Below, piece after piece: positions 1,645 to 20,216 of a DNA stretch of 26,813 nt (position 1 is its first letter; each line of letters begins with the position of its first letter). The stretch is from a virus. The stretch lies in IMG/VR virus record IMGVR_UViG_3300042520_000961, positions 1-26,813 of that record. The stretch is one strand, 5' to 3'. The position numbers and the translations under genes are program-made. The notes under the pieces were generated by a model. The model did no database searches. It worked only from the letters and a program-made list of their open reading frames with translations, and had not been told where the DNA came from.

Positions 1645-1956
1645 ATGGCTCAGAAAAACGTCAAAGCCCCTATGCTGCCGGTTGCTCCGGTAGAATACAA
1701 CGCGCAGTTCATGAACCAGTTGATGGGCATATTGAGGTTGTATTTCAACCAGCTGGACAACGCCGGGCCCATGACTGCGGCGACGCAGCGAACCGGCGGC
1801 AACATTGTGGCTGCGCTGAGCTTCATCCAGCCTGATCCTGCAAACCCGAATACGTTCACGCTTAGCTTGCCAAGTCAGGCGGATTTGAGTAACCTCCGAG
1901 TGGGCGACGTCTACTATGACAGCTCTGCCGGGAACGTCTTGAAAGTCAAAACATGA
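1645..1956 (+). CDS. Conserved phage protein of unknown function, 103 aa
   Basis: This small soluble protein has no signal peptide or membrane segment. Residues about 10-40 hold the pattern LPVAPVEYNAQFMNQLM...LYFNQLDN, which I associate with short proteins beside tail genes of freshwater phages. The C-terminal half (LRVGDVYYDSSAGNVLKV) looks like a small beta domain. The ATG lies 3 bases after the tail-hub stop, with AGGTAAG just upstream as a ribosome binding site. Its last bases overlap the next ATG (ATGA at 1953-1956), indicating translational coupling. It may be a minor structural or tail-fibre-adjacent protein. I cannot assign a function. Confidence 0.75.
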   Translation: MAQKNVKAPMLPVAPVEYNAQFMNQLMGILRLYFNQLDNAGPMTAATQRTGGNIVAALSFIQPDPANPNTFTLSLPSQADLSNLRVGDVYYDSSAGNVLKVKT

Positions 1957-3743
1957 GCCTACAACTTGCCGCACAACATCTTGCCTCCCGTGGCAGGGGG
2001 CCGGACACCACCCTCGTCCACATGGCCCCACAAGAAGTGGCTGGCCTGCAGGCGCTTGCCAAGGCCCACGGCGGCACGCTGACCGTCAACCCCGATACGG
2101 GTTTGGCTGAAGCTGGCTTCCTGTCGAGCATCCTGCCCATGGTGGCAGGCGCTGCTTTGACGGCGACCGGTATCGGTGCCCCTATGGCAGCAATGATCGT
2201 TGGTGGTGGTATGACTGTGGCCACTGGCAGCCTACAGAAAGGCCTGATGGCGGGTCTGGGTGCGTACGGCGGCGCAGGTTTGGCTGGTGGTTTGATGGGT
2301 GCTGGTACGGCTGCAGGAACAGCCGCCGCCGCAGGAGAAGCCGCAGCCGCAGGCGAAATGGCTGCTGCAAACGCCCTTGCAGAATCTCAAGCAGCCAATG
2401 CGGCTATGGCGGGCACAGAATCTGCAGCCAACGCTGCGGCATCCGCTACGCCGGAGTTTGCCGCGCTCAACGCCACGCCCAATCAGTTTGGCGCTTTTGG
2501 CGAAGCTGCGGGGTCGTACGTTCCCCCAACGCAGGCGGCAAACATGGTGGCTACTACGACGGCAGTACCTGCGGTTTCCGGCGTTGGGAACGTCTCCGTG
2601 CAAGAAATGCTGAATGCCGGATTTACGCCGGAACAAATTGCGGCAAGCGCCCAAGAATATGCCGCCAACACTGCAGGCAGCGCGGCTTCGCCGTTTACCG
2701 CCGGGACAAGCGCAGCGCTTGACAGTCCGATGAAGGCCGGTTTGAGCGAAGTCATGAAGCGGCCGGGCGACTTCCTGACAAAAGACAACCTGAAATACGG
2801 TCTGGCCGCACTGGCTCCTGTCGGCATGGAGCTGATGAAGCCAAAGACCGCGACGCCGCGTCCTGCCGAAGCCACCCCACGCTACTCCTACGCCCCCGGC
2901 CGAGTCGAAGACCCGCAAGCTGGGTACACCGGAGCCTACACAGGCGAGCTTACATACTTCGACCCACGCTTCACGCGTGTTGCCGCTGGTGGCGGCCTGA
3001 TGGACATCGGCCCAATCGAAGCCATGTCAAACCGCAACCAAGCCGAGACCCTGATGGCCAATGGCGGTCAGATGTTTGCCGAAGGCGGAGCGACCAAGGC
3101 AGTCAAGCCCGTCGAGGAAGACCCGTACTACACCATGTCCGGCCAGTCCGGCGATGCGTTTAAATACCTGATGGGTCAAATGCCTGCGCCATCAAAAGCC
3201 CCTGCGCCAGCAGCCGTGACCCCCGTACAAGCGGCAGCCCCAACAACATCTGGAGCGCTGGGCGCAGTGCAAAGCATGGCGGGGGCAGGATCGTCAAACG
3301 CAACAATGCGCCCCTACACCTTTGATCCTGCAACCGGCACGTTTACTGCGATGCCAATTATTCAACCTGTTGCACCAGCGCCCGTAAACTACAACGACTA
3401 TGTTGGTGGCGGCATGGCTCACGGCGGTGTTGCATCTCTGGCTCAAGGTGGCGTAAGCCATCTGGGGGATTACTCGGACGGCGGTCGTCTTTTGAAAGGC
3501 CCCGGCGATGGTGTCTCTGATGACATCCCCGCCACGATTGGTGAGAAGCGCCCGGCGCGTCTTGCTGATGGTGAGTTTGTGGTCCCCGCCCGCATCGTCT
3601 CTGAGTTGGGTAACGGCTCGACCGAGGCTGGCGCACGCAAGCTGTACGCCATGATGGACCGGGTGCAAAGTGCCCGCAAGAAGTCGATTGGCAAAGACCG
3701 TGTGGCCGTTAACAGCCGCGCCGAGAAACTTCTCCCTGCATAA
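1953..3743 (+). CDS. Ala/Gly-rich virion-associated protein, 596 aa
   Basis: The start overlaps the previous stop (ATGA). After a short N-terminal domain, residues about 55-150 are hydrophobic and Ala/Gly-rich (repeated AAG, GLM, GAG runs) and could insert into or cross a membrane. This is typical of internal virion proteins ejected with the DNA. The middle is low-complexity Ala/Pro-rich. Two A-x-GG...A-x-GG motifs lie at residues 368-379 and 488-500. A compact C-terminal domain begins with GPGDGVSDDIP at about residue 516, continues with RLADGEFVVPARIV, and ends in a basic tail; it looks like the best conserved part. Its position between tail hub and giant protein supports an internal or tail-channel role. 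The exact function is unknown. Confidence 0.75.
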   Translation: MSLQLAAQHLASRGRGPDTTLVHMAPQEVAGLQALAKAHGGTLTVNPDTGLAEAGFLSSILPMVAGAALTATGIGAPMAAMIVGGGMTVATGSLQKGLMAGLGAYGGAGLAGGLMGAGTAAGTAAAAGEAAAAGEMAAANALAESQAANAAMAGTESAANAAASATPEFAALNATPNQFGAFGEAAGSYVPPTQAANMVATTTAVPAVSGVGNVSVQEMLNAGFTPEQIAASAQEYAANTAGSAASPFTAGTSAALDSPMKAGLSEVMKRPGDFLTKDNLKYGLAALAPVGMELMKPKTATPRPAEATPRYSYAPGRVEDPQAGYTGAYTGELTYFDPRFTRVAAGGGLMDIGPIEAMSNRNQAETLMANGGQMFAEGGATKAVKPVEEDPYYTMSGQSGDAFKYLMGQMPAPSKAPAPAAVTPVQAAAPTTSGALGAVQSMAGAGSSNATMRPYTFDPATGTFTAMPIIQPVAPAPVNYNDYVGGGMAHGGVASLAQGGVSHLGDYSDGGRLLKGPGDGVSDDIPATIGEKRPARLADGEFVVPARIVSELGNGSTEAGARKLYAMMDRVQSARKKSIGKDRVAVNSRAEKLLPA

Positions 3744-3745
3744 CC

Positions 3746-4153
3746 ATGCCGCTGCACTACGTCGAACCCCGCCTGCTGCCGTCCATCTGGCCGATTGCTG
3801 CACCCCTGCTGCAAAAAGCCATCGACATTGATCCCGGTTCGATCACAATCGAGCAAGTGGAGTACGGCGTTCGCACAAATGCTTACAGCCTGTTGGTTTG
3901 GGAAGAGCCGGGTGAGGGCATCACGGGTGCTGTGACGATCAGTTTCCAAGACCTGCCGATGCACCGCGTGGCACACGCACACTTAATGGGCGGCAAGAGT
4001 ATTGTCCGCAAGCACGTCTTTGAAGAAGCCATGAACTGGATGCGCCTGAACGGGGCGACAAAAGCGCAGTGCTGGTGCAAAGACAACTTGGTGCCCATGT
4101 ACGAAAAAATGGGTCTTGAGAAGACCCACAATGTGATGAGGATTGAGCTATGA
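3746..4153 (+). CDS. GNAT-like small protein, 135 aa, in virion cluster
   Basis: The length and layout fit a minimal GCN5-related N-acetyltransferase fold. A beta strand (ITGAVTISFQ) is followed by a helix-rich middle (EEAMNWMRLNGA) and a strand-helix end (AQCWCKDNLVPMYEKMGLEKT), where GNAT proteins typically have N..M...Y.K.GF. The classic Q/R-x-x-G-x-G/A acetyl-CoA loop is not clear, so catalysis is uncertain. Small GNAT-like proteins occur in the internal-virion clusters of podoviruses, and a non-enzymatic structural role is possible. The ATG follows the preceding stop by 2 bases with a weak ribosome binding site, and the stop overlaps the next ATG. Confidence 0.6.
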   Translation: MPLHYVEPRLLPSIWPIAAPLLQKAIDIDPGSITIEQVEYGVRTNAYSLLVWEEPGEGITGAVTISFQDLPMHRVAHAHLMGGKSIVRKHVFEEAMNWMRLNGATKAQCWCKDNLVPMYEKMGLEKTHNVMRIEL

Positions 4154-5202
4154 ACATTCTGGATATGAAACGCAAGATGTTGCCTCTGGGCAATCCTCAA
4201 GGCGACGGCGGTGGTGGTGGCGGTGGTACAACTACACAGGTCCAAGACTTGCCAGACTGGGCCAAGCCATACGCTCAAGAGGTTCTGGGCAAAGGCGCTG
4301 CGCTGTCTGAGGCCCCATACCAAGCGTATACCGGGGAGCGCATTGCGCAGTTCACCCCGCTGCAGCAGCAAGCATTCCAAGGCGCTGGCGCTATGGCCCC
4401 ATCGGCTGCCACAGGCGAGGCCGTTACTCGGGCGCTTGGCACATCCTACGACCCTTACGCCACTGGGCAGTTCGGCGCGCAGGCCAGCCAGTACATGGAC
4501 CCCTACATGCAGAACGTGGTGGGTATCCAGCAGCGCGAAGCCGCTCGGGCATCCGAGATGCAGCGCAACCAGAATCAAGCGCAGGCCGTCGGGCAAGGCG
4601 CTTTTGGCGGTTCGCGCCAAGCCATCATGGAAGCGGAGCGCCAGCGCAATCTGGCTACGCAGCAAGGTGACATCCAAGCCCGTGGCTTGCAGGATGCGTT
4701 CAGTCGTGGCCAGACCCAGTTCAACACTGAGCAGCAGCTGCGCGAGCAGTCCAAGCAGTACGGCGCGGGCCTCGGTCTCCAAGGTCTTCAGACGGCCCTC
4801 ACAGGCGCTGGCCAGCAGTTCCAGCAAGGCATGGACGTCAACAAGCTGCAGGCAGGCTACGGCACGCAGCAGCAGCAACAGGTGCAGAACATCCTCGGCC
4901 AGCAGTACCAAGACTTTCAGGATCAGAAGAAGTTCCCATACCAGCAGCTGGAGTTCCAATCCAACCTGTTGCGCGGCACGCCATCTGGCACGACTCAAAC
5001 CATGTACACAGCACCTCCAAGTGCCAGCTCACAGCTTCTTGGCGCAGGTACAGCTTTGGGCGGCGCATACCTTATGGGTGGACGGGCCAATGGCGGCGTT
5101 GTCAGCAGCTACGCCAAGGGCGGCAAAGTGTCTGACGCCAAGGTCAAGCGCGAAACAAAAAAATCGGCAGGTTTGGCTGAGCTGGCCCTGTCTAAAATCT
5201 GA
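4150..5202 (+). CDS. Gln/Ala-rich probable internal virion protein, 350 aa
   Basis: The start overlaps the upstream stop (ATGA). A run of seven glycines sits at about residues 20-26. A conserved-looking helical region follows, with YMDPYMQNVV, QREAARASEMQRNQ and GAFGGSRQAIMEAERQRN at about residues 115-170, and then long Gln-rich amphipathic helices to about residue 280. The C-terminal tail has A-N-GG...A-K-GG at 313-325 and ends Lys-rich. There is no signal peptide. The composition and position match proteins ejected from the capsid with the DNA in short-tailed phages, in the way P22 gp7/gp20/gp16 or T7 gp14-16 are. That role is inferred from context, and no enzymatic motif is visible. Confidence 0.7.
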   Translation: MNILDMKRKMLPLGNPQGDGGGGGGGTTTQVQDLPDWAKPYAQEVLGKGAALSEAPYQAYTGERIAQFTPLQQQAFQGAGAMAPSAATGEAVTRALGTSYDPYATGQFGAQASQYMDPYMQNVVGIQQREAARASEMQRNQNQAQAVGQGAFGGSRQAIMEAERQRNLATQQGDIQARGLQDAFSRGQTQFNTEQQLREQSKQYGAGLGLQGLQTALTGAGQQFQQGMDVNKLQAGYGTQQQQQVQNILGQQYQDFQDQKKFPYQQLEFQSNLLRGTPSGTTQTMYTAPPSASSQLLGAGTALGGAYLMGGRANGGVVSSYAKGGKVSDAKVKRETKKSAGLAELALSKI

Positions 5203-5210
5203 GGTAAGCC

Positions 5211-6923
5211 ATGATTGACGTCAACAAAATTACCTCCACGCTGGCCAAGTTGCCAGACCAGCAGCTGCAGCAATACGCGCAGATGCACAAGAGCGATCCG
5301 TACATCATGGCCTTGGCCATGTCGGAGTCCAACCGCCGCAAAGAGATGCGCTCTGCTGGTCAGGGCGCACAAGGCATGCAAGAGCAGCCCAAAGTGGTCG
5401 ACCAGATGGTGGCCGAGATGGCTCCCCAGCAGCTTCCCGAAGACCAAGGTATTGGCCAGCTCCCCGCAGGCAACATGAACTTTGCAGGCGGCGGCATCAT
5501 TGCATTTGCTGACGGCGGTGATGTTGAGCGGTATCAGTACGGCGGCATGCCGCCGCGCAGCATCATGGGGGACATTCCCGGTTTTGTTGCCGGTACAGGC
5601 AACCTCATCCCCCAGCAGGGCGCTCCAGAAGAAGTGCCGCTTTTCCGCAGAATGTTTCGAGACGCTCGTGCCGTAGGCGCAAACTACCAGCTTGAGCAAG
5701 CCAAGGCCCGTATTGCTGCAGGAGTAGGCACTTCCGCCGATGAAGCAATTATTGCCGCCGCACAGCCAGCGCAAAGCACGGCTCCGTCCCCCCAAGACAT
5801 GGCGCAGTTTGATGCCGCGTCTAACCTGTACATGACTGAGCGTGCAGCCAAACAAGCGGCTGCCCCCAAAGCTCCCGATGCCGCGCCCAAAGTTGACCCT
5901 ACCCGTCGTTCTGGTACAGGCACCGGGGCTGCCTCCGCCGCAGCTGCAGGCACCAAACAGCCCCCACAAGCGGGGCTCGATGACCTGATTCAAAAATATC
6001 AGCGCCAAACGGACTTGAACATTGGGCAGGCGCGAAATGCTACCGCGCAGTACGCAAAAGAACTTGAAGACGAGGGTACACAACTTGTGGCATCCGAGAA
6101 AAAACGGATTGCTGAAAAGGTCGATCCGTACAAAGACCGCGAAGCCCGTCTGCTCAAACAGGAAAAAGACTCGGAGGGTATGGGCGACAAGTACTTGGGG
6201 CTTGCGTTGCTGCAGGCAGGTGCGGCAATGATGACCACACCGGGCGGCATCGGTATGGCTTTGGGCAAAGGCGTTCAAGTTGGAAGCGACCGCTACATTG
6301 CGGGTATAGAAAAGATCAACGCCGCCAAAGAGAAGTTTGCATTGGCCAAAGACAGGCTGGAAGATTTGCGGATTAACCGCGCCGACATGAACGAGCGCGA
6401 TGTACGGGATGCCGAAAAAGAAGCGCGTTCGCTCAACCGCCAAGGCAAGTCGCTGTTCTACAGCGGCGCAAAAGACGAGCTGAACATGAAGGACAAGCAG
6501 ATTACGGCGGTGCTGGGGCTTGCAGCAGACGATCTCAAAACAACTCGCCAGATTGATGCTGAGCGCCAGAACACCCTCATAAGGGAAGGCGGGGCAAACA
6601 CTCGGAACAAGGCCACTACAGACGCCGCCATGCAGAGCCCCGAACGTCTGGCGTTTTTGTCTGCTTTGGAGAAAACAAAGACCAAGGAAAATCCGCAAGG
6701 AGACCCGGCTGCCGCATACCAAAGCATTATTGCAATGAAGCGCGAACCTGTCTCGATCGAAAACCTGCGCAAAGATTGGTTGGATACGGCTAAGAAGATG
6801 GAAATTCAGTCTAGCTACCCTAACATCAAAACTTTTGAAGACTACGTAGCGGTCTTTGGTGGCGGTGCAGGCGGGGCAGGGGGCGACGGCTTTAAGGTTG
6901 TCGGCGTGCGTCCAGCGAAGTAA
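5211..6923 (+). CDS. Coiled-coil probable internal virion protein, 570 aa
   Basis: The ATG at 5211 is preceded by GAGGTAAGCC, a good ribosome binding site, 8 bases after the previous stop. The N-terminal domain (LPDQQLQQYAQMHKSDPY, then MALAMSESNRRKEMR) is followed by the motif FAGGGIIAFADGG at residues 91-103. An Ala/Pro-rich linker leads to a long charged coiled coil at about 260-480, interrupted at about 325-365 by a Gly/Ala/Met-rich hydrophobic stretch (LGLALLQAGAAMM, PGGIGMALGKG). The C-terminus ends in a Gly-rich run. The architecture is shared in style with its two upstream neighbours, suggesting a co-assembled set of ejection proteins. The function is unproven. Confidence 0.72.
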   Translation: MIDVNKITSTLAKLPDQQLQQYAQMHKSDPYIMALAMSESNRRKEMRSAGQGAQGMQEQPKVVDQMVAEMAPQQLPEDQGIGQLPAGNMNFAGGGIIAFADGGDVERYQYGGMPPRSIMGDIPGFVAGTGNLIPQQGAPEEVPLFRRMFRDARAVGANYQLEQAKARIAAGVGTSADEAIIAAAQPAQSTAPSPQDMAQFDAASNLYMTERAAKQAAAPKAPDAAPKVDPTRRSGTGTGAASAAAAGTKQPPQAGLDDLIQKYQRQTDLNIGQARNATAQYAKELEDEGTQLVASEKKRIAEKVDPYKDREARLLKQEKDSEGMGDKYLGLALLQAGAAMMTTPGGIGMALGKGVQVGSDRYIAGIEKINAAKEKFALAKDRLEDLRINRADMNERDVRDAEKEARSLNRQGKSLFYSGAKDELNMKDKQITAVLGLAADDLKTTRQIDAERQNTLIREGGANTRNKATTDAAMQSPERLAFLSALEKTKTKENPQGDPAAAYQSIIAMKREPVSIENLRKDWLDTAKKMEIQSSYPNIKTFEDYVAVFGGGAGGAGGDGFKVVGVRPAK

Positions 6924-6927
6924 AATA

Positions 6928-6948
6928 ACGCCAGCGCCATGCTGGCGT
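6928..6948 (+). promoter_or_regulatory. Perfect 8-bp stem-loop between virion genes
   Basis: ACGCCAGC (6928-6935) pairs perfectly with GCTGGCGT (6941-6948) around a GCCAT loop. It starts 4 bases after the stop of the 570-aa gene and ends 11 bases before the AGGAAG ribosome binding site of the giant gene. No T-tract follows, so it is not a standard terminator. It may be an RNA-processing or mRNA-stability element, or it may tune expression of the giant protein. The loop contains an ATG (6939) in the giant gene's frame, which would be buried. Confidence 0.55.
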
Positions 6949-6959
6949 ACTCACAATTC

Positions 6960-6965
6960 AGGAAG
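6960..6965 (+). promoter_or_regulatory. Ribosome binding site deciding the start of the giant gene
   Basis: AGGAAG lies 6 bases before ATG 6972. The upstream in-frame ATG at 6939 sits inside a hairpin loop without a Shine-Dalgarno. The protein read from 6972 begins MPIYSVQGPDGRIYDVEGP, a natural-looking small N-terminal domain, so 6972 is preferred. Confidence 0.7.
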
Positions 6966-6971
6966 CAGGCT

Positions 6972-9900
6972 ATGCCCATTTACAGCGTACAGGGTCCAGA
7001 CGGACGTATTTATGATGTGGAGGGCCCTGCTGGCGCTTCCGAAGATCAGATTCTTGGCGCAGTACGCCGCCAGTTCTTGACGGCTCAGGCCCCTGCGCCG
7101 GAAAAGAAGGGCTCTGGCTTGGGCGACATTGCTCGCTCGTTTGGTCTGGGCGCGGTAGGTTCGACTGGGGCAATTGCCAGTGCGGCTGGAGCCGATAACG
7201 CAGCTGCCCGCGCCCTTGATCGGGCAGGCGAACGCCTTCAAGAAGGCTTTAGCGCAAGCCGCAAAGCCGAACTGCAGGCACAAGCCGAGCGCATGAAAAA
7301 AGCCGAGGCGTCCGGCTCCACCCTTGAAGAGATCAAAGCCGGTGCCCTCAACGTGATTGAGGCTCCGTTGCAGTCTGCTGCGCAGGCCGTAGGTTCGTTT
7401 GTTCCCCTTGTCCCCACACTGTTCTTGGCCAAGCCGTTGGCAGCTTTGGGCCTTGGGGCACGCGCCATCATGGGTATTCGTGGTGCAATTGGCGGAGCGC
7501 AGGGTGCCGGTGCAGTCAAGCAAAACATCTACGACACGGTGCTGGAAGCCGAAAAAGCCGACGGCAAGACTGACGAGCAGGCAAACGCTGCCGCAGCGCG
7601 TGCGCAGTCCTATATCAGCGAGAACGCAGACCAAATCCTTTTGGGCACAGGTCTCGGCGTTGCTGCTGGTACTACCGGCGTTGAACGCATTTTGCCCGGC
7701 GGCGCACGCGGCGCGGCAAGCAAGGCGCAGGAAGCATTGGCCAAACGTCTGGGTGCACGCACAGCGTCAGGTATCACAACCGCAGCGGCCGAGATGCCGC
7801 TCGAAGGTTTGCAGGGCGGACAAGAACGACTGGCTGCCAACCTTGCTTTGCAGCGCACGGGCCGTGACGTTGATGCGTTTACCGGTGTGGCAGGTCAAGC
7901 CACACAAGAAGCACTGACTGGTGCATTTGGCGCTGGCCCAGTTGGCTTTTTGTCGCCTGACCGACGCGCTGAGCTTGCAGAAAAAGAGCGCCAGCAAAAG
8001 GAGCAGGCCGATGCTGCGGCCGCAGCCGAAGCTGCCAAGAACTCCCCTGAAGCACTGCGCCAACTGGACACCGAGTTCCGCACAACCGACCAGCAGCTTA
8101 AAGCGCTGAACGCGCAGCTCAACGCAAACAAACCCAAGAAGGGTGCAACCGACGAGCAAAAGCAAGCGTACGAAGCCCTCAAGGCCCAGCGCGACGAACT
8201 GCTGGTTGGGTACAAGCCGCTGCGTCAGGAGTTCATGCAGCGTAAGAGTGCGATTGATGCGCTGCAGACCGCCGAGCAGTCGGCCATAGAGGTCGCTGCC
8301 GCAGAGGGGCAAACCGCCGCAAAGCAGCCACTGCCGTCCGACATCCCCGGCGCACAGCCGTTCCAGTTGTCAGACACCTCGCGTCTGATGAACGAGTACG
8401 ACAACCTGCGCAACCAAGTAGGTACGCTGGAGCAACAGCTGGCCGCAGGCCCTGACCTCGATACCCAGACACAACTGACGCAGCAGCGCAGCCAGATCAT
8501 GGCCCGCATGGCAGAGATGGCCCCGGTCATTGAGGAGCGCGGTGGTGTCACGGACACCGAGAAAGATTTTGCCAAGAAGCTGGCCGCTGCCGAGAAAGAG
8601 CGCTTGCGTCTGCTTGAGATCGGCGACTTTGAAGCGGCTGCAAAACAAGCCGAGGTTGTGCGCGATCTTCAGGCCCGTGCCCCACTCTTGCAAGAGCTGA
8701 CCGCTTTCCGCACGCAGTCTGGCCAAAACCGCAATTTGTTTGCAGAAGCTCCGGCCCCCGCTGAGACAGAGACAGATGCGCAACTCAAGCAGCAAACTCT
8801 GGAAGAAGAAAAACAACGGGCGCTGTATGGTCCCGAGTCAAAGAAAGCATCTGCTGAGCAAGCGTTTGGCGAAGCCGCTGTTGGCCCTCGCGGTCAGCTG
8901 GAGCCCATCACGCCCATGCCTGACCTCAAAGCACAGACAGGCATCAAGCCAAAACAGTTGGAGCTGGTGGAGGAGACAAACCAGAAAGTAGCTGCTGCAC
9001 AAACTGCCTTGTCCGACGCGGCCAAGACCAAAGACACGCAGGCAATTTACGCTGCTGCCGATGCGCTCAACCAAGCACAGAGCGAAGGCTCCCGTGCGCA
9101 GGACGAAGTTGGCCGTGGCATGTTCCGCCCCGTGGTGTTGGATTTGTTCAGCCCTGCCAACATCATGAACACCGCAATTCAAAGCGGCGACACCAAGCTA
9201 ATCAACGACATCGCTACCCACGCCGATACTACGGCACTGCGTACGGCGCTGGATGAAAAAGCCAGCGAGCGCGATAGGCTGGTGCGTTTGCTCGACACAC
9301 GCTTGGACTTGGGCGGTGAAGAGAAATCCTCAACAGGCGAAAAACTAAAAAGCGTCAAGCGCGAACGCGCCGACTTGTTCTCCCAACTGTACGATGCCCG
9401 GCAGCAAGCGCTATTCAAGAACGGCACATACCCTGACCGTGAACTGCAAGCCCTCTACGACAAAGGCGGTCCAGCCGCCGTTGAGTACGAGCGCGTCATG
9501 CAGGACGTTGAAGAGCTGTCCAAGAAGGTCACGACCAAGCAAGGCAACGCCAAGAAGTCGTTATATGAGCAGCTCGTGGACTTGGCTGCTCAGCACGCTG
9601 CGTTGATGGCTCAGATGGAAGCAGGCGTTGCTACGCCCAACCTGCGCGAGAAGACTGCTGGACTGCAAGCAAAGCTAGGCAAGGGAGAAGCCCCGGCTGC
9701 GCGTCAGATGGACGCCGCAGAAAAGTACCAGCTCCAGCGCAGGATTGATGCAGTCGTCAACAAGTACCGCATGGTTGAAGGCCAAGTGGCCCCTGTCCGT
9801 GACCAGATCACGAAGTTGTACAGCAGCTTGTACAAGACTACGCCGCTTGAGAAGGCCAGCACCGTTGCTGAGCGCCGTGTCCGCGAATCTGACGAAGCCG

Positions 9901-12900
9901 CAAGAGGCCCCAAGGCTAAGACACGTACAGCCTCTACTGCTACGCGTATTGCCAAAGGCAACGTGCGCAAAGAAGCGGAGACCTCGCAGAAGATGCGCGA
10001 TCTGGCGCGTGACTTGGGTATGGAAGAAGCCGAGTACAAAAAGTTCAGCGACAAACTCACCAAGCGCTATGCTGACTTGAAAGAGAAGTACGGCAAGAAC
10101 GATCCTGCGGTAAACAAGTTCCAGATCGGCATGGCTGACCAGCTGACCGACAAAGCAATGGAGCTGGGCAAGGCTACGCCCGAGTACAAAGCCACGCTGA
10201 AAGAGCAGATCGAGTACGTCAAAGGCGCACTGGCACAGAGCAAACAGGCAATCCCAACAAAGCGCTCAGGGCAAGTTACGCGCAAGCAGTCGGCAGCGCC
10301 GAGTCGTTTGGTCACGTCGTCGCCTGAGAGCCGCGCACAGACAAACATTGAAGACCGCGCAGTGCGCATCAAGCGCGGCTCACTCAAGGACTTCCAAGAA
10401 GGCATTGACTCCGAGAAAGAAGGTCGGGATTTCTTGCGCGGTGTTGAGGTTGAGAGTGTTGAACTGGACAGCGTGACGGTCTCATTGCTCAAGCAAAACG
10501 ATCTGCGCAGCGCACTTACAAGGGTTGGCGTAGACAACAACGTCGACGAGTTTAGCCGCGCTGTGGCTAAATTGCTCAAGACCGTCTTGGATAAAACCGA
10601 CGTCAAGCTCGTCAACAAGCTGGTTGATGATGCCGGAAAAGAAGTGCTGGGGGCCGCAACCAGCCAGCTCATTGAGTTGAATACAGACGGCGGCTTGTCG
10701 GTGGAGACACTGCTGCACGAAGGAACGCACGCTGCGGCTGAACGCATAGTGCAGCTGGCTGAGACCAACCCCGACTTGTTGACCAAAGAGCAAAAGCTCG
10801 CCATCAACGAGCTTAAGGCCATTCACGCCCGAGTCAAAGCCGATCCCGGCATCACCAGCAAAAATGCCAAGGGCAGCCTGTCCGAGTTCATTGCCGAAGT
10901 GATGTCTAACGCCAATCTGCAAAAGCAGTTGAAGCAGCGCAAGTGGCGCATGTCTGACATGTGGAAAGGCATCAAGTCCGTCATCATGCGGATGTTGGGC
11001 TTCAAAGATGTCGAGACAATGTTTGGCGCATCCGCTGTGGCAATTGAGCAGCTGTTCGTTCCGTCCAGCGTGCGCAATCTCGGCGGCAAAGCCAGCGCCG
11101 AAACCAAAGTAACGCGAAACCTGTCCGCAAAAGAAATTGCTGCACTGGACGACGGCAGCAATTCCATGAAGCAGTTTGCTGCGCAGTTTGGCGATCTCAT
11201 CAAGCAAAAGGACCGCACGCCAGAAGACGTAGAGCGTATTGCAGATCAAGTAATTGACAGCATGTTGGCCAGCGTTGCAGACGCTCCTCGCCGAAGCGGT
11301 GCGCCTCGTTTGAAGTCAGTCAGTATGGCTGACCAAGAGGCCCGACGCGCAGCGTCTGTTGTGGCGCTGCCGACAAAAGACTCGCTGGACTACAAAGGCA
11401 TGACCACCATGTCTGACGGCAAGCCTTACGACGAGAACAACCCACTGCACTACGTTGAGGCAACTCCAGCTACATTTGCTGCGTTGGAAGCAGTGAACAA
11501 CCCTCAGTTGCGCGAGAGAGAAGCTGATGCTATTACCAAACAGCGCAGAAAAGATTTTCAAAGCCTTGGCGATTACTTGCAGGCCAACTACAAGAACTAC
11601 ACAACTGTGGAGACAGCGCTGGTGCTCAAAGCTGCGGCCAAGTACGGCGTCATCTCTGGCAGCAACGGCCGTTTGAAGTTAGTTGAAATTGGCAAAGACA
11701 ACCGCCACAACATTGCCGTGCTTGGCAAAGAAACCGCAGACGCGGTCATCGAGCAGTTGCGTGCAGGCAAGGGCCTCAAGCAAGCTTTCTTGGACGGCTT
11801 GCAGAAAAACGCAGACGACAGCGCCAAGAACAACGAGCGCAAGAACGGTTGGAAAAAGTTTGACCAAGCTATTGCATCGTATGACGCGCAAAAAGAATTT
11901 GCCTTTGACGAATACGAAGCGCACCTTGAAAGCCTGTATACAGACGCTGAAATAGACACTGCGTTTGACCAAACAGGGTACGACGGCGCGGCATTTGCAA
12001 ATAACGCCGGGCTCATTGACCAGCTAATCGGTGATGGGTTTTTAGAAGACAGACGGACAATCCGTCCCCCAGATCAAGAAATTGCAACCAACAATAAAAG
12101 TGTGGAAGAAGCTGCAATTGCCCTGAACGAAGGTTGCGCAGGTACGCCGTGGTGCACAGGCGCGAGCGTAGGTACGGCCCGCAGTCAAATTGAAGAGGGC
12201 GATTTCTACGTCTACTACAACAAGGGTCGTCCTGAAGTGGCTGTTCGCATGGATGGTGACAACAAGATTGGCGAAGTTCGTGGCAACAACCCAAACCAAG
12301 CGCTTGACCCTGCGCAGCAACAAATTGCTGCCAACTTTTTGCGGGCAAAAAAGTTTGAAAAAGCGGATGAGTACCTTTCGGAGTTTGAGCGCCGTGAAGC
12401 GTTGGTCAAACTGGCCAAGGGCGAAACAAAACTGGACGTTAAAGATTTGCTGGGGGAAGACTCTATTGTTAACAGCAACGGCAAAATAAACGAAAGCAAA
12501 ATAAAGTCCAAACTTCGTTTCCGCGTCATTGACGGTTACGGCAACCGCCCTGCCCCCGCCCAAAACATCATTGATTTTTTTGGTCAGCAGTATCTTGACA
12601 CGGCGATTACCGCTTACGAAAACAACCAGTTTGTTTTTTCAGACATTAACGTCGACGAAAACTTAAACAACAAACCAATTGAAGTTGAGTTTGCCGGTAA
12701 AAAATACAAAGCGTTGCCGACGGAAATCAAAGCGGTAAATGAAATCAACCTCAACGTGTACACGTACCGTGGCAAAACTCAAAAAAGTTTAGAGCTTCCA
12801 AAAATGCAGTACGTAGGATTGCTTGACGTTTTTAACGGAACGCTTAACCTTCCTGCGTTGGTAGAAGTAAAGAGCATTGTATTTTTTCGGGACACGCTTG

Positions 12901-15900
12901 GGCAACCCAACGACACTGCAAGACTTGTTTTGCCCGCAGACGCCGTTGTAAAAGAAGTTAGCGCGTATGGCGGCAAGTCCAGCGGCACAATTGAAGGTGT
13001 TGAAACCATTCAAACCGTTACGCTGCGCGACGGTACTAACGGCTTGACGTTGGTGCTGCCCGACACAAAATATGCCAACGTAGTAAGCGACGATAAAAAG
13101 GTAGCAAGCGGTTTTGCGCTCAATGCTGTAAGACCTGTTGATACAGCGTTGGACGATGCAGGCATTGATTACTACTTACAACGCCGAATCAAACGCGGGG
13201 AAGGCACTACTGAAGAAACCGCCAAATACGAGGCGATTGTAAAACCGGCGTTTAAAAAGTTTTTTACTGCTATTGAAAACGTGTTTGGGTACGAAGCGTA
13301 CGAGCACGCGTTGAACAACGACGAAACGGCAAAAGCGTACCGAAATACGTACGATTTTGATAACGCAGTTAGTACCGCCATAAAAGACGTACTGGAGCTT
13401 AACAAGTACTCCCGTGAAGCCTTTGACAAAATGGCCAAGGTCATCAAAGACTCGACCGGCGCAAAGGTGGCATACCCAGAAGGCGAACTGATTGCGCCCA
13501 AGCGCGTGGGCGATCCACCGTACGGAGCAGAGTTTACTGAGGCTCCTGAAGAGCGCCGCTTTGCTCCCAAAGATGTGGGCGTGCAGAAAGACAAGCAGGG
13601 CGGCTTCTCGTTTGCCCGTAAGCAAGTCAACTCGTCGTCTGTGGTTGCCCGTGAGCCGGGCGTTGTGGACACCATACTGGGCAACATGCTCGGCCTTGCA
13701 GGCCGTGTGCAGTTCATCGACCAGTACGCAGCTTTGGAAGCCGCTACTAAGAAGGGCTTGAGCGCGGGCGTCATAAGCAGCTTGGAGGCTACCAACGCCA
13801 ACTACCTGCTGCGGTTTGGCCAGCAGCGCAGCCAGTTCTCAGGTCAGTTCCTGACCAACGGTCCGGTCAAGGCGGAGATCACGCGCAAGAACGGCGGCAC
13901 TGAGACGCTGTACCGCAGCACCAAGGGCACGTCCATGGTGGACGTTGCGCAGGCACTCAACAAAGCCAAGCTGTCCAGCGACGTAGAGCAGGAGAACATG
14001 TTCACGTTGTACGTGGCAGGCAAGCGTGCGCAGCAAGTTGGGTGGGACAAGCTGAACTTTTCCAGCCCTACGCAAGCTAAGGCTGAGTACGACGCAGTCA
14101 TCGCTCGGCTGAACATCAACGAGACCGCCAAGAAAGCGTTTGAGGAAGCCGCCAAGCTGTACCAAGAGTACAACGCAGGCTTGCTGGACTTCCTTGCGCA
14201 GACAGGCGCGTTGTCGGACAAGAAGGTGGCCGAGCTTAAAGCGATCAGCTACGTGCCGTTCTACCGTGTGAACAACAACGGTGAAGTTCAGTTGATGGTG
14301 GACAAAGAGCGCCCAGTTCGGATTGCCAACATCAAGGACCAGCCGCAACTCAAGGAGCTGATCGGCGGCAACACCGCCATCTTGCCAATCTTTACCAGCG
14401 CAGCGCAGAACACGTTCATGCTGACCGGCATGGGCCTGCGTAACCAAGCGGTGAAAGAGACGTCCTTCATGCTGCAAAAGCTGGGTATTGCCAGCCGTGT
14501 AGCCTCGGGCAACGGCCCGACAGGGGCCAACGTGGTGCGCTTCTTCAAGAAGGGCGAGCCTTACTACGCACTGATCGACACCGACGCTTACGGCATCCCG
14601 GCCGATTTGATTGTGCGCGGCATGGAGGGCATCAAGACAACGATGCCCGCTATCATCAAGCTGATGGGAATCCCTGCCAACATCTTGCGCTCGTTTGTTG
14701 TGCGTAACCCTGCCTACGCTGTGCGTCAGATCATCCGTGATCCGCTCAACGCATGGATGACTACCGGCACTGACGCTGTGCCCGTGCTCTCGTCCATGAA
14801 AGAGCTGGCCAGTATGGTCGCAGGGCGCAGTGAAGCCGAGCGCAAGCTCATGGAGACAGGCGCAATCAGCAGCAACGTCTACAGCGGTGACGATCAAGAC
14901 ATGGCCAAGTTCCTCAAAGACATGTCGGCAGGCAAGTCTGGGTGGGACAAAGCCACCGCGATGCTGGACACGTTTGCGCTGCAGGGCGATGCCGCTACAC
15001 GCGCTGTGATCTACAAGGACTCGCTGGCCAAAGGCATGTCGGAGCAAGAAGCACTGCTGCGCACACTGGAGTCAATGAACTTCAGCCGCCGTGGCGTGTC
15101 GCCCAGCATGCAGGCGCTGTCTACCCTCATCCCGTTCTTCAACGCACAGGTGCAGGGTCTGGACGTGATTTACCGGGCCATGAAAGGCGACATGCCTTAC
15201 AGCCAGCAGCTCGACATCCGGGGCAAGATGGTGCGCCGTGGTTTGATGCTGGCCGCAGGCACGATTGCCTACGCCGCCATGATGGAGGACGACGAAGCCT
15301 ACAAACGCGCCAAACCTGAAGAGCGCCTTGCCAACTGGTTTGTTTACGTGCCCGGTGTTGACGAGCCTGTGCGTGTGCCAATCCCGTTTGAAATGGGTTT
15401 CTTGTTCAAGGCGTTGCCTGAAGCTGTGTACGCTATGGCCATGCAAGACGGCAAAACGGACGCTGCACTGAGCGGGTTGTCCAAGCTGGCCCTGCAGACT
15501 GTTCCGTTGAGCTTGCCGCAAGCGGTTAAGCCGTTGACAGAAGCTGTGCTGGGCAAATCGTTCTACAGCGGTGACATCGAGTCCACACGCGAGAAAGACG
15601 TGCTGGCAACGCAGCGTTACCGCGACAACTCCACAGAGCTGGCCAAAACAATTGGTGCTGTGACAGGCAACGTGGGGCTCAGCCCCATCACGATCGACTA
15701 CCTGATTCGTGGGTACACCGGCGGTCTGGGGATTGCGCTTGTGCAGCTGGCCAACCCGATACTGGCTCCGGGCGACAAAGCCGAGGTTGCGCAGCCTACG
15801 ACCAAGATCAGCAAGACGCCATTCATTGGCGGTTTGTTCCAGCCCGTTGAGGGCCGGGGCACGCTGGACGAAGCCTACGACCGCATGAAAGAGATTCAGC

Positions 15901-16166
15901 AGGTCAAGGGCACGTTCAACGACATGGTCGATAAAGGCAAACGCGCTGAAGCCATGGCGTTTGCGCAAGAGTACTCGGAGAAACTGGCCGCAGCATCCGT
16001 CTCTGGCAGTGTGCAAAAACGTCTGGGGGAGCTGGCCAAGCTGGAGCGCCAGATCAAGAGCAGCCCGAACCTGAGCACCGAGCAGAAAGATTTGCGTCTG
16101 GCACAGCTGGACAAGCTCAAGACAGCTACGGCTCGGCAGTTTCTTGCAACAACCGCTCAGCGATAG
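6972..16166 (+). CDS. Giant polyvalent virion protein, 3064 aa, with metallopeptidase-like and LPD38-like regions
   Basis: Layout from the chosen start: a small N-terminal domain (1-35); an Ala/Gly hydrophobic region with possible membrane segments (about 120-300); very long charged coiled coils (about 320-1150); a HEGTH zinc-protease-like motif with H1249, E1250, H1253 and candidate third ligand E1305 or E1309; a WCTG module around W1727; an AT-rich beta/solenoid-like segment (about 1820-2150); and a C-terminal region of about 900 residues. The last includes RNPAYAVRQIIRDPLNAW near 2578 and NFSRRGVSP...IPFFNAQVQG at 2703-2730, the signature I associate with large polyvalent protein domain 38. 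Such proteins are packaged and ejected with phage DNA. They can carry peptidoglycan, anti-restriction or protease modules. The architecture is seen directly; the ejection role is inferred. No lysozyme or transglycosylase motif was recognised. Confidence 0.8.
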   Translation: MPIYSVQGPDGRIYDVEGPAGASEDQILGAVRRQFLTAQAPAPEKKGSGLGDIARSFGLGAVGSTGAIASAAGADNAAARALDRAGERLQEGFSASRKAELQAQAERMKKAEASGSTLEEIKAGALNVIEAPLQSAAQAVGSFVPLVPTLFLAKPLAALGLGARAIMGIRGAIGGAQGAGAVKQNIYDTVLEAEKADGKTDEQANAAAARAQSYISENADQILLGTGLGVAAGTTGVERILPGGARGAASKAQEALAKRLGARTASGITTAAAEMPLEGLQGGQERLAANLALQRTGRDVDAFTGVAGQATQEALTGAFGAGPVGFLSPDRRAELAEKERQQKEQADAAAAAEAAKNSPEALRQLDTEFRTTDQQLKALNAQLNANKPKKGATDEQKQAYEALKAQRDELLVGYKPLRQEFMQRKSAIDALQTAEQSAIEVAAAEGQTAAKQPLPSDIPGAQPFQLSDTSRLMNEYDNLRNQVGTLEQQLAAGPDLDTQTQLTQQRSQIMARMAEMAPVIEERGGVTDTEKDFAKKLAAAEKERLRLLEIGDFEAAAKQAEVVRDLQARAPLLQELTAFRTQSGQNRNLFAEAPAPAETETDAQLKQQTLEEEKQRALYGPESKKASAEQAFGEAAVGPRGQLEPITPMPDLKAQTGIKPKQLELVEETNQKVAAAQTALSDAAKTKDTQAIYAAADALNQAQSEGSRAQDEVGRGMFRPVVLDLFSPANIMNTAIQSGDTKLINDIATHADTTALRTALDEKASERDRLVRLLDTRLDLGGEEKSSTGEKLKSVKRERADLFSQLYDARQQALFKNGTYPDRELQALYDKGGPAAVEYERVMQDVEELSKKVTTKQGNAKKSLYEQLVDLAAQHAALMAQMEAGVATPNLREKTAGLQAKLGKGEAPAARQMDAAEKYQLQRRIDAVVNKYRMVEGQVAPVRDQITKLYSSLYKTTPLEKASTVAERRVRESDEAARGPKAKTRTASTATRIAKGNVRKEAETSQKMRDLARDLGMEEAEYKKFSDKLTKRYADLKEKYGKNDPAVNKFQIGMADQLTDKAMELGKATPEYKATLKEQIEYVKGALAQSKQAIPTKRSGQVTRKQSAAPSRLVTSSPESRAQTNIEDRAVRIKRGSLKDFQEGIDSEKEGRDFLRGVEVESVELDSVTVSLLKQNDLRSALTRVGVDNNVDEFSRAVAKLLKTVLDKTDVKLVNKLVDDAGKEVLGAATSQLIELNTDGGLSVETLLHEGTHAAAERIVQLAETNPDLLTKEQKLAINELKAIHARVKADPGITSKNAKGSLSEFIAEVMSNANLQKQLKQRKWRMSDMWKGIKSVIMRMLGFKDVETMFGASAVAIEQLFVPSSVRNLGGKASAETKVTRNLSAKEIAALDDGSNSMKQFAAQFGDLIKQKDRTPEDVERIADQVIDSMLASVADAPRRSGAPRLKSVSMADQEARRAASVVALPTKDSLDYKGMTTMSDGKPYDENNPLHYVEATPATFAALEAVNNPQLREREADAITKQRRKDFQSLGDYLQANYKNYTTVETALVLKAAAKYGVISGSNGRLKLVEIGKDNRHNIAVLGKETADAVIEQLRAGKGLKQAFLDGLQKNADDSAKNNERKNGWKKFDQAIASYDAQKEFAFDEYEAHLESLYTDAEIDTAFDQTGYDGAAFANNAGLIDQLIGDGFLEDRRTIRPPDQEIATNNKSVEEAAIALNEGCAGTPWCTGASVGTARSQIEEGDFYVYYNKGRPEVAVRMDGDNKIGEVRGNNPNQALDPAQQQIAANFLRAKKFEKADEYLSEFERREALVKLAKGETKLDVKDLLGEDSIVNSNGKINESKIKSKLRFRVIDGYGNRPAPAQNIIDFFGQQYLDTAITAYENNQFVFSDINVDENLNNKPIEVEFAGKKYKALPTEIKAVNEINLNVYTYRGKTQKSLELPKMQYVGLLDVFNGTLNLPALVEVKSIVFFRDTLGQPNDTARLVLPADAVVKEVSAYGGKSSGTIEGVETIQTVTLRDGTNGLTLVLPDTKYANVVSDDKKVASGFALNAVRPVDTALDDAGIDYYLQRRIKRGEGTTEETAKYEAIVKPAFKKFFTAIENVFGYEAYEHALNNDETAKAYRNTYDFDNAVSTAIKDVLELNKYSREAFDKMAKVIKDSTGAKVAYPEGELIAPKRVGDPPYGAEFTEAPEERRFAPKDVGVQKDKQGGFSFARKQVNSSSVVAREPGVVDTILGNMLGLAGRVQFIDQYAALEAATKKGLSAGVISSLEATNANYLLRFGQQRSQFSGQFLTNGPVKAEITRKNGGTETLYRSTKGTSMVDVAQALNKAKLSSDVEQENMFTLYVAGKRAQQVGWDKLNFSSPTQAKAEYDAVIARLNINETAKKAFEEAAKLYQEYNAGLLDFLAQTGALSDKKVAELKAISYVPFYRVNNNGEVQLMVDKERPVRIANIKDQPQLKELIGGNTAILPIFTSAAQNTFMLTGMGLRNQAVKETSFMLQKLGIASRVASGNGPTGANVVRFFKKGEPYYALIDTDAYGIPADLIVRGMEGIKTTMPAIIKLMGIPANILRSFVVRNPAYAVRQIIRDPLNAWMTTGTDAVPVLSSMKELASMVAGRSEAERKLMETGAISSNVYSGDDQDMAKFLKDMSAGKSGWDKATAMLDTFALQGDAATRAVIYKDSLAKGMSEQEALLRTLESMNFSRRGVSPSMQALSTLIPFFNAQVQGLDVIYRAMKGDMPYSQQLDIRGKMVRRGLMLAAGTIAYAAMMEDDEAYKRAKPEERLANWFVYVPGVDEPVRVPIPFEMGFLFKALPEAVYAMAMQDGKTDAALSGLSKLALQTVPLSLPQAVKPLTEAVLGKSFYSGDIESTREKDVLATQRYRDNSTELAKTIGAVTGNVGLSPITIDYLIRGYTGGLGIALVQLANPILAPGDKAEVAQPTTKISKTPFIGGLFQPVEGRGTLDEAYDRMKEIQQVKGTFNDMVDKGKRAEAMAFAQEYSEKLAAASVSGSVQKRLGELAKLERQIKSSPNLSTEQKDLRLAQLDKLKTATARQFLATTAQR
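12050..13430 (+). other. AT-rich, compositionally distinct segment inside the giant gene
   Basis: Hand counts give 121 G+C in 300 bases (40%) over 12601-12900, against 35 of 60 (58%) at 14161-14220. Codons shift to AAA, TTT, GTA and GTT. The segment begins around the WCT module and continues through a Leu/Val-rich stretch with repeated LxLP-like turns (LNLPALVEV, LVLPADAVV, LTLVLPDTK) that suggests a beta-solenoid or degenerate leucine-rich repeat. The reading frame stays intact. This looks like a horizontally acquired domain cassette. Its boundaries are approximate. Confidence 0.55.
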
Positions 16167-16345
16167 AACCAAACCCCGCTCAGTCCCTTGTGGACGGCGG
16201 GGTAGGCTTTAGCGTCGAAGATGCGGCAGCGCAGCGCCTCACTGAGGCCTGCTTTGCGTACTGCCTCAGAGTCGAGGCAGGGGACGAAAAACCCCTGCCC
16301 CCGCTCAACTCGTGACCATGGGAATGCTCTGGAGTATCGAGTCAT
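16157..16345 (-). CDS. Probable small phage protein, 62 aa, at the convergent junction
   Basis: On the minus strand the frame ATG 16345 to TGA 16157 reads as a plausible protein with core GQGFFVPCLDSEAVRKAGL and ending in GVWFYR. Codon choice (CTG, GCC, GAC, TTC, CGC) looks like that of real genes here. The compact pattern of FFVPCLD, a helix with R and L, and a GVxFYR end resembles short phage proteins I have seen, but I know no function. The start overlaps the primase-helicase 3' end by 41 bases, with only a weak GAG upstream. A TTG at 16348 could serve instead. The stop overlaps the end of the opposing giant gene by 10 bases. Without it, 16167-16304 would be noncoding. Confidence 0.55.
   Translation of the reverse strand: MTRYSRAFPWSRVERGQGFFVPCLDSEAVRKAGLSEALRCRIFDAKAYPAVHKGLSGVWFYR
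16173..16203 (+). terminator. Possible bidirectional terminator hairpin between convergent blocks
   Basis: ACCCCGC (16173-16179) pairs with GCGGGGT (16197-16203). An inner GTCC/GGAC stem (16183-16186 with 16192-16195) closes a CTTGT loop. It lies 6 bases after the giant gene stop. On the plus strand it is followed by AGGCTTTAG, on the minus strand by TTTGGTTC, so the U-tracts are weak on both sides. The position fits a terminator, but it also lies within the putative 62-aa minus-strand gene. Confidence 0.4.
16261..16299. repeat. Two overlapping, mutually exclusive inverted repeats
   Basis: CTGCCTC (16261-16267) pairs with GAGGCAG (16274-16280), and GGCAGGGG (16276-16283) pairs with CCCCTGCC (16292-16299). 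The shared GGCAG means only one hairpin can form at a time. The element lies just downstream of the primase-helicase stop in the leftward direction. It may be a structural switch or simply a consequence of coding sequence. Confidence 0.4.
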
Positions 16346-19292: not shown

Positions 19293-19312
19293 GGAGGTCC
19301 TTCGGGAATGGT

Positions 19313-19462
19313 TTACTTGAGGTCGTCTTCGGTGGTGTCCAGCAGCTTGGCGAAGCGCTCGTACAGCTCTTTCACGACTTCAGCAGGCACGGTGTAGTTG
19401 GCCATGTAGATGTGGCGCAGCAGTTCTTCGTCGGTCAGGGCTTGAGGTTGTACTCGTGACAT
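19313..19462 (-). CDS. Small acidic phage protein, 49 aa
   Basis: A clean ATG frame with a strong GGAGAA ribosome binding site 4 bases before the start. The product begins MSRVQPQALTDEELLRHIY, continues as two amphipathic helices (VPAEVVKELYERFAKLL) and ends acidic (DTTEDDLK). It overlaps the 3' end of the helix-turn-helix gene by 28 bases in another frame and sits directly upstream of the primase-helicase gene. It resembles small helical proteins commonly found beside replication genes of freshwater phages. The function is unknown; a replisome adaptor or regulator partner is a guess. Confidence 0.75.
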   Translation of the reverse strand: MSRVQPQALTDEELLRHIYMANYTVPAEVVKELYERFAKLLDTTEDDLK

Positions 19463-19713
19463 ATTCTTCTCCATGCCTCGTCAGCGTTCTGCGAGGACTG
19501 CATGATTGTTAAAAGGGTTTCCACGCGGTGGCGGTACGCGACAAAGACTTCTGATCCGTTGAACCAGTTGTAGACGGTCTGTCGTGTGACGCCGAGGGCG
19601 TAGGCGATTTTCGTGACAGGGAAATCCAAGTGGATAGCCCAACGCCCAAGCTGGTTGCCCAGAGACTTGGGAGTCTTCATCACGTCGTCAATGATTTTTT
19701 GTGAGTAGGCCAT
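19435..19713 (-). CDS. Helix-turn-helix DNA-binding regulator, 92 aa
   Basis: Residues 31-53 form a clear helix-turn-helix (FPVTKIAYALGVTRQTVYNW), with the recognition helix around TRQTVYNW. Flanking helices give the usual small Cro/XRE-like or homeodomain-like fold. The C-terminal helix region (DEAWRRICHEYNL) may dimerise. It probably binds an operator and controls early or late phage transcription, but no operator was identified. The start codon has no Shine-Dalgarno; a UUCG hairpin lies 6 bases upstream instead. It is embedded in the replication operon, which suggests autoregulation or a timing role rather than a lysogeny switch. Confidence 0.8.
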   Translation of the reverse strand: MAYSQKIIDDVMKTPKSLGNQLGRWAIHLDFPVTKIAYALGVTRQTVYNWFNGSEVFVAYRHRVETLLTIMQSSQNADEAWRRICHEYNLKP

Positions 19714-19719
19714 GGTAGT

Positions 19720-19735
19720 AGGGGCCGAAGCCCCT
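19720..19735 (-). promoter_or_regulatory. UUCG tetraloop hairpin before the HTH gene
   Basis: On the minus strand AGGGGC-TTCG-GCCCCT forms a 6-bp GC-rich stem with an exceptionally stable UUCG loop. It lies between the lipoprotein stop and the HTH start. No T-tract follows, only ACTACC and then ATG. It might be an mRNA-end or stability element, or a translational control element for the regulator. Confidence 0.55.
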
Positions 19736-19740
19736 GTTGT

Positions 19741-20118: not shown

Positions 20119-20216
20119 TTGCTTCTCCTGTTGTTAAAAGTAGGTGGGGGTACTCGCTGCGTCTGTCAGTGGCAGGAACGCCACCCGTGCCAGCATCCGC
20201 TTTCCCCCCGATTTAA

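Follow-up and report, generated by a model that had tools for sequence, protein, structure and literature searches.

The giant open reading frame and its WCT module

The window analysed here is IMG/VR record IMGVR_UViG_3300042520_000961, a stretch of 26,813 bases from an uncultured freshwater phage. It contains one giant open reading frame (ORF), and the subject of this report is a module in the middle of the encoded protein. The module is composed of a conserved helical part, a variable linker, the WCT domain (named from W1738, C1739 and T1740), a predicted β-solenoid and a helical tail. In the window it is one allele that has recently replaced another between near-identical flanks. The coordinates are listed in Table 1.

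Table 1. Features of the giant ORF, its exchanged cassette and the adjoining genes
Feature	Position (nt)	Strand	Basis or remark
Giant polyvalent-type virion/ejection protein holding the cassette, 3075 aa, single open frame	6939..16166	+	LPD38, phrog_18222
Zincin-like metallopeptidase region, HEGTH at nt 10716-10730	10419..11138	+	Sequence motif, profile match
Exchanged cassette: helical region, WCT domain, solenoid, helical tail	11243..13406	+	blastn of window against L008, dS profile
Conserved helical part of module (protein 1505-1645), ending GWKKFDQ	11451..11873	+	Collinear with bacterial relatives
Variable linker (protein 1646-1720)	11874..12098	+	Mean pairwise identity 0.38-0.43 over 1661-1720, five close relatives
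WCT domain (protein 1721-1850): W1738 C1739 T1740, GDFYVYY, VAVRM, EVRG..NQ	12099..12488	+	Alignment, AlphaFold2 model
Cys1739 codon; with Cys1733, sole cysteines in 3075 residues	12153..12155	+	Sequence
Variable β-solenoid, predicted (protein 1897-2051)	12627..13091	+	Model, VIA-align, identity profile
Variable helical tail of module (protein 2052-2173)	13092..13457	+	Model, identity profile
LPD38, large polyvalent protein associated domain 38 (protein 2785-2957), constant C-terminal part	15291..15809	+	PF18857 E 1e-30
596-aa cysteine-free protein, same gene cluster	1953..3743	+	PHROG match: none
DNA ejection protein, cysteine-free	4150..5202	+	phrog_4287 E 2.4e-17; two genes upstream of giant ORF
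570-aa cysteine-free protein, same gene cluster	5211..6923	+	PHROG match: none

The giant protein matches phrog_18222 with E 3.8e-26, and its LPD38 match exceeds the family cut-off. Like polyvalent proteins, it is giant and multidomain, and combines LPD38 with a zincin-like peptidase of the HExxH/HExxxH kind; different from them, it carries a WCT domain for which neither an LPD nor any other Pfam model gave a match. The zincin-like region was recognized from the HEGTH motif (residue 1260) and a profile only; the virion RNA polymerase profile phrog_2206 matches residues 1252-1421 (E 8e-7), and the Pfam scan of the giant protein matched no zincin family. Passages of Iyer et al. (2017; PMC5512222) describe polyvalent-protein domains as combined and exchanged, infer injection, list LPD38 as phage-type only and treat GNATs as RimI-like families; in the main text of that article neither PcfJ nor leucine-rich occurs.

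Exchange, composition and distribution of the cassette

In the tree of the C-terminal part, the window and the related phage locus L008 are sisters with support of 100/99. As aligned by blastn, the two are 97.1% identical over 7092-11242 and 96.4% identical over 13407-19743; between 11242 and 13407 just two pieces align, at about 77%. Synonymous divergence (dS) follows the same borders: it is 0.05-0.14 over residues 351-1400 and 0.07-0.13 over residues 2236-3075, and saturated or nearly so over residues 1401-2180. Because the flanks are near-identical and dS is saturated inside, the cassette was recently replaced by recombination, allele for allele. The module tree conflicts with the C-terminal tree, as a sister pairing of the window with L008 was rejected (p-AU 0.012). 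The nearest to the window module among the 8 compared is that of L001 (same contig as L084), at 67%, and the closest relatives L001, L002, L005 and L008 each carry a module allele. The recent event is the exchange of one module allele for another, rather than a recognisable new import. A further exchange point lies near nt 10417, at the start of the zincin region. The cassette offers a clear example of one putative effector replacing another in phages that are otherwise almost the same.

Two other places differ between the window and L008. The N-terminus of the giant protein (window 6939-7091) is unlike that of L008, with 22% identity in the first 50-residue bin, and residues 51-350 are 90-100% identical. 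The alignment with L008, elsewhere 96-98% identical, has a gap at 19744-20141 that a 125-aa ORF (window 19741-20118, minus strand) fills, so this gene too has probably been exchanged.

The original prediction, made from the letters of the window, had marked nt 12050-13430 as a recently acquired, swappable AT-rich cassette with a core of about 40% GC between flanks near 58%. The exchanged cassette is larger than that segment. Its swappable nature is borne out by the L008 comparison, by the tree conflict and by the patchy presence of the module in relatives. Sliding-window analysis also recovered the AT-rich segment: residues 1705-2163 (nt 12051-13427) have a GC content of 0.471, against 0.575 in the rest of ORF 6939-16166, and the lowest-GC window of 460 codons begins at nt 12069. 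The lowest 60-codon window reaches 0.39 (nt 12609), as predicted for the core, and the right flank and the region further upstream fit as well. The right edge is sharp: the 60-codon window starting at nt 13149 has a GC content of 0.46, and that starting at nt 13509 one of 0.59; the left edge departs from the prediction, being a ramp that begins near nt 11440-11800. Codon choice shifts while the single frame stays open, also as predicted. GC at third codon positions (GC3) is 0.499 in residues 1705-2163, whereas 0.676 is expected from their own amino acids and the codon use of the rest, which rules out amino-acid bias as the cause; none of 2000 codon shuffles gave a 460-codon window as low in GC or GC3. 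The inference of recent acquisition from low GC was not supported. In all 42 homologues that carry module and C-terminus on one ORF, both halves of the module are lower in GC3 than the C-terminus, so the module has had its low GC for a long time.

The distribution of the module was examined among relatives found with the C-terminal part (83 relatives in the scan, 80 kept). For the C-terminal tree, 4 duplicate and 23 short loci of the 83 were dropped, and the resulting 57 rows, window included, merged to 50. In the 56 relatives of sufficient length, classified by motif patterns only, WCT occurs together with HExxH in 8, HExxxH without WCT in 30, HExxH alone in 10 and neither in 8, so that the WCT motif is absent in 48; homologues all carrying the segment, as diverged as its flanks, were not what we found. 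In many module-less relatives a different zincin, of the HExxxH type, occupies the position of the zincin region; L007, L009, L010, L011, L013 and L014 are such cases, with C-terminal identities of 71-91%. On the C-terminal tree the WCT label must have been gained or lost at least 5 times, each change being required by starred branches, and it is more clustered than expected from shuffling (1 of 500 shuffles as low). With the WCT domain profile, 50 viral loci were recovered, 42 of which have the same C-terminus on the ORF. The C-terminal part was matched by 153 phage records, all below 60% identity; three queries found no module in isolate phage records, and a scan of genome contigs with the C-terminal part gave no match. 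One viral contig, L132, which may represent DNA of a host or a provirus, encodes at 7158-9239 a 694-aa WCT protein much like a protein on the bacterial metagenome-assembled genome (MAG) contig L203.

Cysteines, predicted folds and bacterial relatives

Both cysteines of the giant protein, Cys1733 and Cys1739, lie within the WCT motif. As counted across relatives, 37 of the 48 module-less proteins are cysteine-free (16 cysteines in 117,941 aa overall), and 30 of the 42 module-bearing ORFs have no cysteine outside the motif (14 of 73 cysteines lie outside it, in 121,415 aa). The 13 other window ORFs that were counted hold 53 cysteines in 5236 aa. According to passages of PMC3915230, N4-like virion RNA polymerases of ~3400 aa are injected and cysteine-free, the absence being tied to injection through the tail; their lack of cysteines is also stated in part of PMC4837373. 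Like these polymerases, the giant protein is nearly cysteine-free and has a profile match in the zincin region; different from them, it keeps the two cysteines of the WCT motif, and the profile overlap is found only around the zincin. The neighbouring ejection gene, LPD38 and the cysteine purge indirectly support the predicted location of the segment in an ejected protein, and the match of the zincin region to the virion RNA polymerase profile belongs to the same ejection context; from this context the giant protein is most likely ejected with the DNA. The WCT cysteine, retained in every one of the 73 phage and bacterial rows of the alignment, is probably needed, because it is kept against this purge. 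The pattern suggests a working thiol, and the residue may be catalytic. A lone cysteine kept in a cysteine-purged ejected protein is a cheap guide to a possible active site.

The predicted WCTG...VAVR...EVRG..NQ pattern is present in the window as PWCTG (W1738), VAVRM and EVRGNNPNQ (from residue 1779), and W, C, GDFY, RG and Q are invariant in the 73 rows, which were those used for structure work from a list of 114. The AlphaFold2 model of residues 1505-1860 built from these rows has a predicted local distance difference test score (pLDDT) of 86 and a predicted template modelling score of 0.73. By VIA-align, nearly all of its 50 best rows are titled GNAT-type acyltransferases, with Z values of 4.5-6.5, 82-107 aligned residues and root-mean-square deviations (rmsd) of 3.2-5.1. 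The GNAT fold runs β1-α-α-β2-β3-β4-α3, and the WCT model has the same order. GNATs carry the acyl-CoA loop motif Q/R-x-x-G-x-G/A after strand 4. The WCT domain differs from GNATs in its Z values below 8, in the lack of a Pfam GNAT match and in the absence of this motif; since the Z values are 4.5-6.5 and the motif is absent, we propose a GNAT-like topology, not membership of the GNAT family.

No family for the module was found in Pfam, PHROGs, NCBIfam or PADLOC. The lone matches to Archease (E 0.045) and phrog_4328 (E 0.017), those to PARP_reg (E 0.006) and phrog_5192 (E 0.004) in one member each, and that to MreB-like_C in three of nine members (best E 0.047) were set aside as weak. BFVD gave one strong match, an uncharacterised uncultured-phage protein (E 2e-7; E 4e-5). 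The helical part and the WCT domain are therefore undescribed in the family libraries searched, and the papers listed by searches of one open-licence library showed no account of the WCT domain in title or abstract.

Downstream of the WCT domain, the original prediction had noted a Leu/Val repeat-like stretch. The AlphaFold model of residues 1405-2235 (9 rows, pLDDT 76) places a predicted β-solenoid there, at model residues 493-647, with pLDDT in this block mostly 75-92. By VIA-align the solenoid resembles a stretch of the chitinase ChiW (Z 9.8, rmsd 4.2, 141 aligned) and, with Z values of 5-7, adhesin-titled and insulin-receptor chains; no leucine-rich repeat or Receptor L domain of Pfam matched it in the window. 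Mean pairwise identity is 0.28-0.59 over residues 1901-2060, and, in the set of five closest sequences to which the window belongs, variation is concentrated in the linker (1661-1720) and in 1901-2160. In the giant phage proteins of L128 and L131, long plain repeats of ~20 residues come after WCT, the unit length being judged by eye.

The WCT profile also matched 204 bacterial stretches; 80 of these were fetched and read. The 80 are mostly titled as Patescibacteria lineages and gut Bacilli, and in all of them the motif lies within an ORF. The upstream helical region is collinear between the phage module and the bacterial relatives (hhalign E 4e-4). In the phylum of G011, the Uhrbacteria genome that contains L137, WCT matches occur in 14 of 192 sampled genomes; in that of G009, an Erysipelotrichaceae genome, they occur in 1 of 195, the sole match being G009 itself. 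A scan of ten neighbours at five bacterial loci gave housekeeping genes at L141, L143 and L166 (YceG, tRNA methyl transferase/thiolase type, CTP synthase, SerRS, GyrA); L179 has a histidine phosphatase and a weak transglutaminase match, and L162 a transposase and a reverse transcriptase (RT). At a sixth locus, L167, the neighbour scan matched nothing. The C-termini are leucine-rich-like arrays at L142, L166, L167 and L176, with a Recep_L match at L166 just under the cut-off (E 4e-4), and DUF4116 repeats at L183 (E 4e-170) and L212 (E 1e-94). The gut Bacilli MAG locus L166:941-7125, which adjoins gyrA, encodes three paralogues in tandem; their WCT halves are nearly identical, but their leucine-rich-like arrays differ. 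Plasmid matches to one bacterial relative (5 records) cover its C-terminal part alone and not the WCT domain.

In addition, we searched the 77 bacterial WCT ORFs that have a 3' end for diversity-generating retroelements (DGRs). The gene end has a second copy outside the ORF in 21; the 56 ORFs without one include contigs too short to show it. A pair was counted as DGR-type when at least 80% of its mismatches lay at adenines of the other copy. Eight of the 77 ORFs have such adenine-directed variable/template repeat pairs (binomial P < 1e-7 for all eight): L138 (23/23), L140 (15/15), L145 (18/18), L187 (16/16), L202 (22/23), L139 (15/16), L137 (24/29) and L162 (25/30). L188 fell below the criterion with 76%, and the other 12 ORFs with a second copy, which are paralogous or repeat copies, showed no adenine bias. 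Six of the eight loci have an RT nearby (RVT_1 E 6e-22 or better). The record titles name patescibacterial lineages for seven of the eight; that of L202 names only a bacterium. Like the DGR targets of Patescibacteria (candidate phyla radiation, CPR), these relatives have a C-terminal variable repeat with adenine-directed mismatches; in the phage form, by contrast, a solenoid and then a constant virion domain follow, free of a DGR. Roux et al. (2021; PMC8144416), in the part bearing on this point, leave open that functional domains of Patescibacterial DGR targets may be unrecognised. Because bacterial WCT precedes repeat solenoids or a DGR variable region, a conserved head with a diversified tail looks like a rule of the family.

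Readings of the module and their meaning

The cassette borders, the allelic replacement, the patchiness, the cysteine pattern, the bacterial homology and the solenoid prediction all come from computation; ejection, enzymatic activity, target binding and an arms race as the cause are inferences. The reading that we favour, at about an even chance of being right, is a two-part cassette in a probably ejected protein, consisting of a cysteine-dependent effector of GNAT-like topology and an exchangeable solenoid that selects the target. The giant protein would enter the host largely unfolded, as its lack of cysteines would permit, and might be released or processed by the zincin next to the module. 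Then the WCT domain, plausibly built on a GNAT-like scaffold, would use its cysteine for a transfer or modification reaction on a host target selected by the solenoid. By swapping whole cassettes through homologous recombination in the conserved flanks, phages would renew the choice of target. The strongest argument that the tail selects and the head acts is that the same head recurs in bacteria with other fast-changing or repeat tails.

Several observations weigh against this reading. The module is dispensable, since 48 of 56 relatives do without it, 30 of those having the HExxxH zincin motif, and the 42 module-bearing ORFs include fragments and near-copies. Twelve of these 42 have cysteines elsewhere than in the motif, and the WCT cysteine could be structural. 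As for the fold, the GNAT Z values are in the range below 8 where common chance arrangements occur, RGNNPNQ stands in place of the acyl-CoA loop motif, and a PDB Foldseek search with the 831-aa model of the whole module returned nothing at E <= 0.001.

An alternative, which we consider perhaps half as probable, is that the solenoid is a host-range element binding the virion or envelope, for example in an ejection conduit through the periplasm, that it is swapped as hosts change, and that WCT is a non-enzymatic scaffold. The resemblance of the solenoid to adhesin-titled and insulin-receptor chains and to ChiW, the concentration of variation in solenoid and tail, and the virion structural and ejection genes near the giant ORF (PHROGs) would fit such a part. 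However, a passive scaffold needs no cysteine where nearly all others are absent, and the bacterial relatives stand alone, at L141, L143 and L166 among housekeeping genes, and are not virion parts. It is a little less likely again that WCT diverged from within the PcfJ family and shares whatever role PcfJ plays in conjugation and phages. The original prediction had called its motif reminiscent of PcfJ-like proteins. The motif order is the same (Cys, helix, Gly, strand, Pro, strand, strand with Gln or Glu-Val-Arg-Gly, Asn, helix). In hhalign, 25 viral WCT rows against 6 of the 8 PcfJ sequences gave E 0.00088 and a score of 26.6, where 200 column shuffles scored at most 19.1, and the two stay in register all the way between cysteine and helix; bacterial-only and viral-only sets gave E 0.004 and 0.006, each above 60 of 60 shuffles, and PcfJ-like proteins are among the weak BFVD matches (E 0.26-2.1). 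With all 8 PcfJ sequences, however, E was 0.02-0.13, and the hhalign probability was 4-23% at best. The WCT domain also differs from PcfJ by the Trp before the cysteine, by GDFY and by lacking the HC pair, and the PcfJ hidden Markov model (HMM) PF14284 matched neither 8 phage records at E <= 10 nor, in Pfam scans, the giant protein and nine module members. A PcfJ scan of the viral contigs gave only 2 loci, which were set aside. The likeness thus stands as motifs in register that beat all shuffles (E 0.0009-0.01), and kinship is possible and only suggestive; family membership is not supported by the HMM.

The original prediction's own view, a recent import of foreign AT-rich DNA, is very improbable. 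The shift in GC and codon use and the saturated divergence from L008 between near-identical flanks agree with it, but the equal GC3 drop in 42 of 42 homologues, by which we rejected this explanation of the low GC, and the module alleles of all four closest relatives contradict it. Least probable, to the point of being negligible, is a DGR or other in-place hypermutation in the phage. Some bacterial WCT relatives are DGR targets, which would favour it; however, nt 12489-13600 are not duplicated in the window, which also lacks an RT motif, the RT motif occurs in 0 of the 50 module-bearing viral loci within the stretches examined, and synonymous sites are saturated too, which indicates recombination rather than in-place hypermutation. 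In-place hypermutation was rejected on these grounds; the phage shows no DGR of its own in the stretches examined and diversifies its module by swapping.

Among the cysteine-free genes upstream of the giant ORF, a 135-aa protein (window 3746-4153, plus strand) has two cysteines and no PHROG or Pfam match.

Returning to the effector reading, eight DGR-type loci, seven of them titled patescibacterial, and a probably ejected phage protein have one conserved domain in common; the question of unrecognised domains in Patescibacterial DGR targets therefore becomes testable by expression. More tentatively, and with somewhat less than an even chance, WCT may be an undescribed cysteine-dependent effector that several lineages have coupled to diversifying recognition parts. 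If so, Patescibacteria would couple WCT to DGR-mutated C-termini, and gut Bacilli to repeat arrays and tandem paralogues; for some DGR targets of Patescibacteria, WCT would be the conserved domain that has been missing; and the phage form would be a pre-packaged, re-targetable weapon with recombination-swapped solenoids, delivered with the genome.

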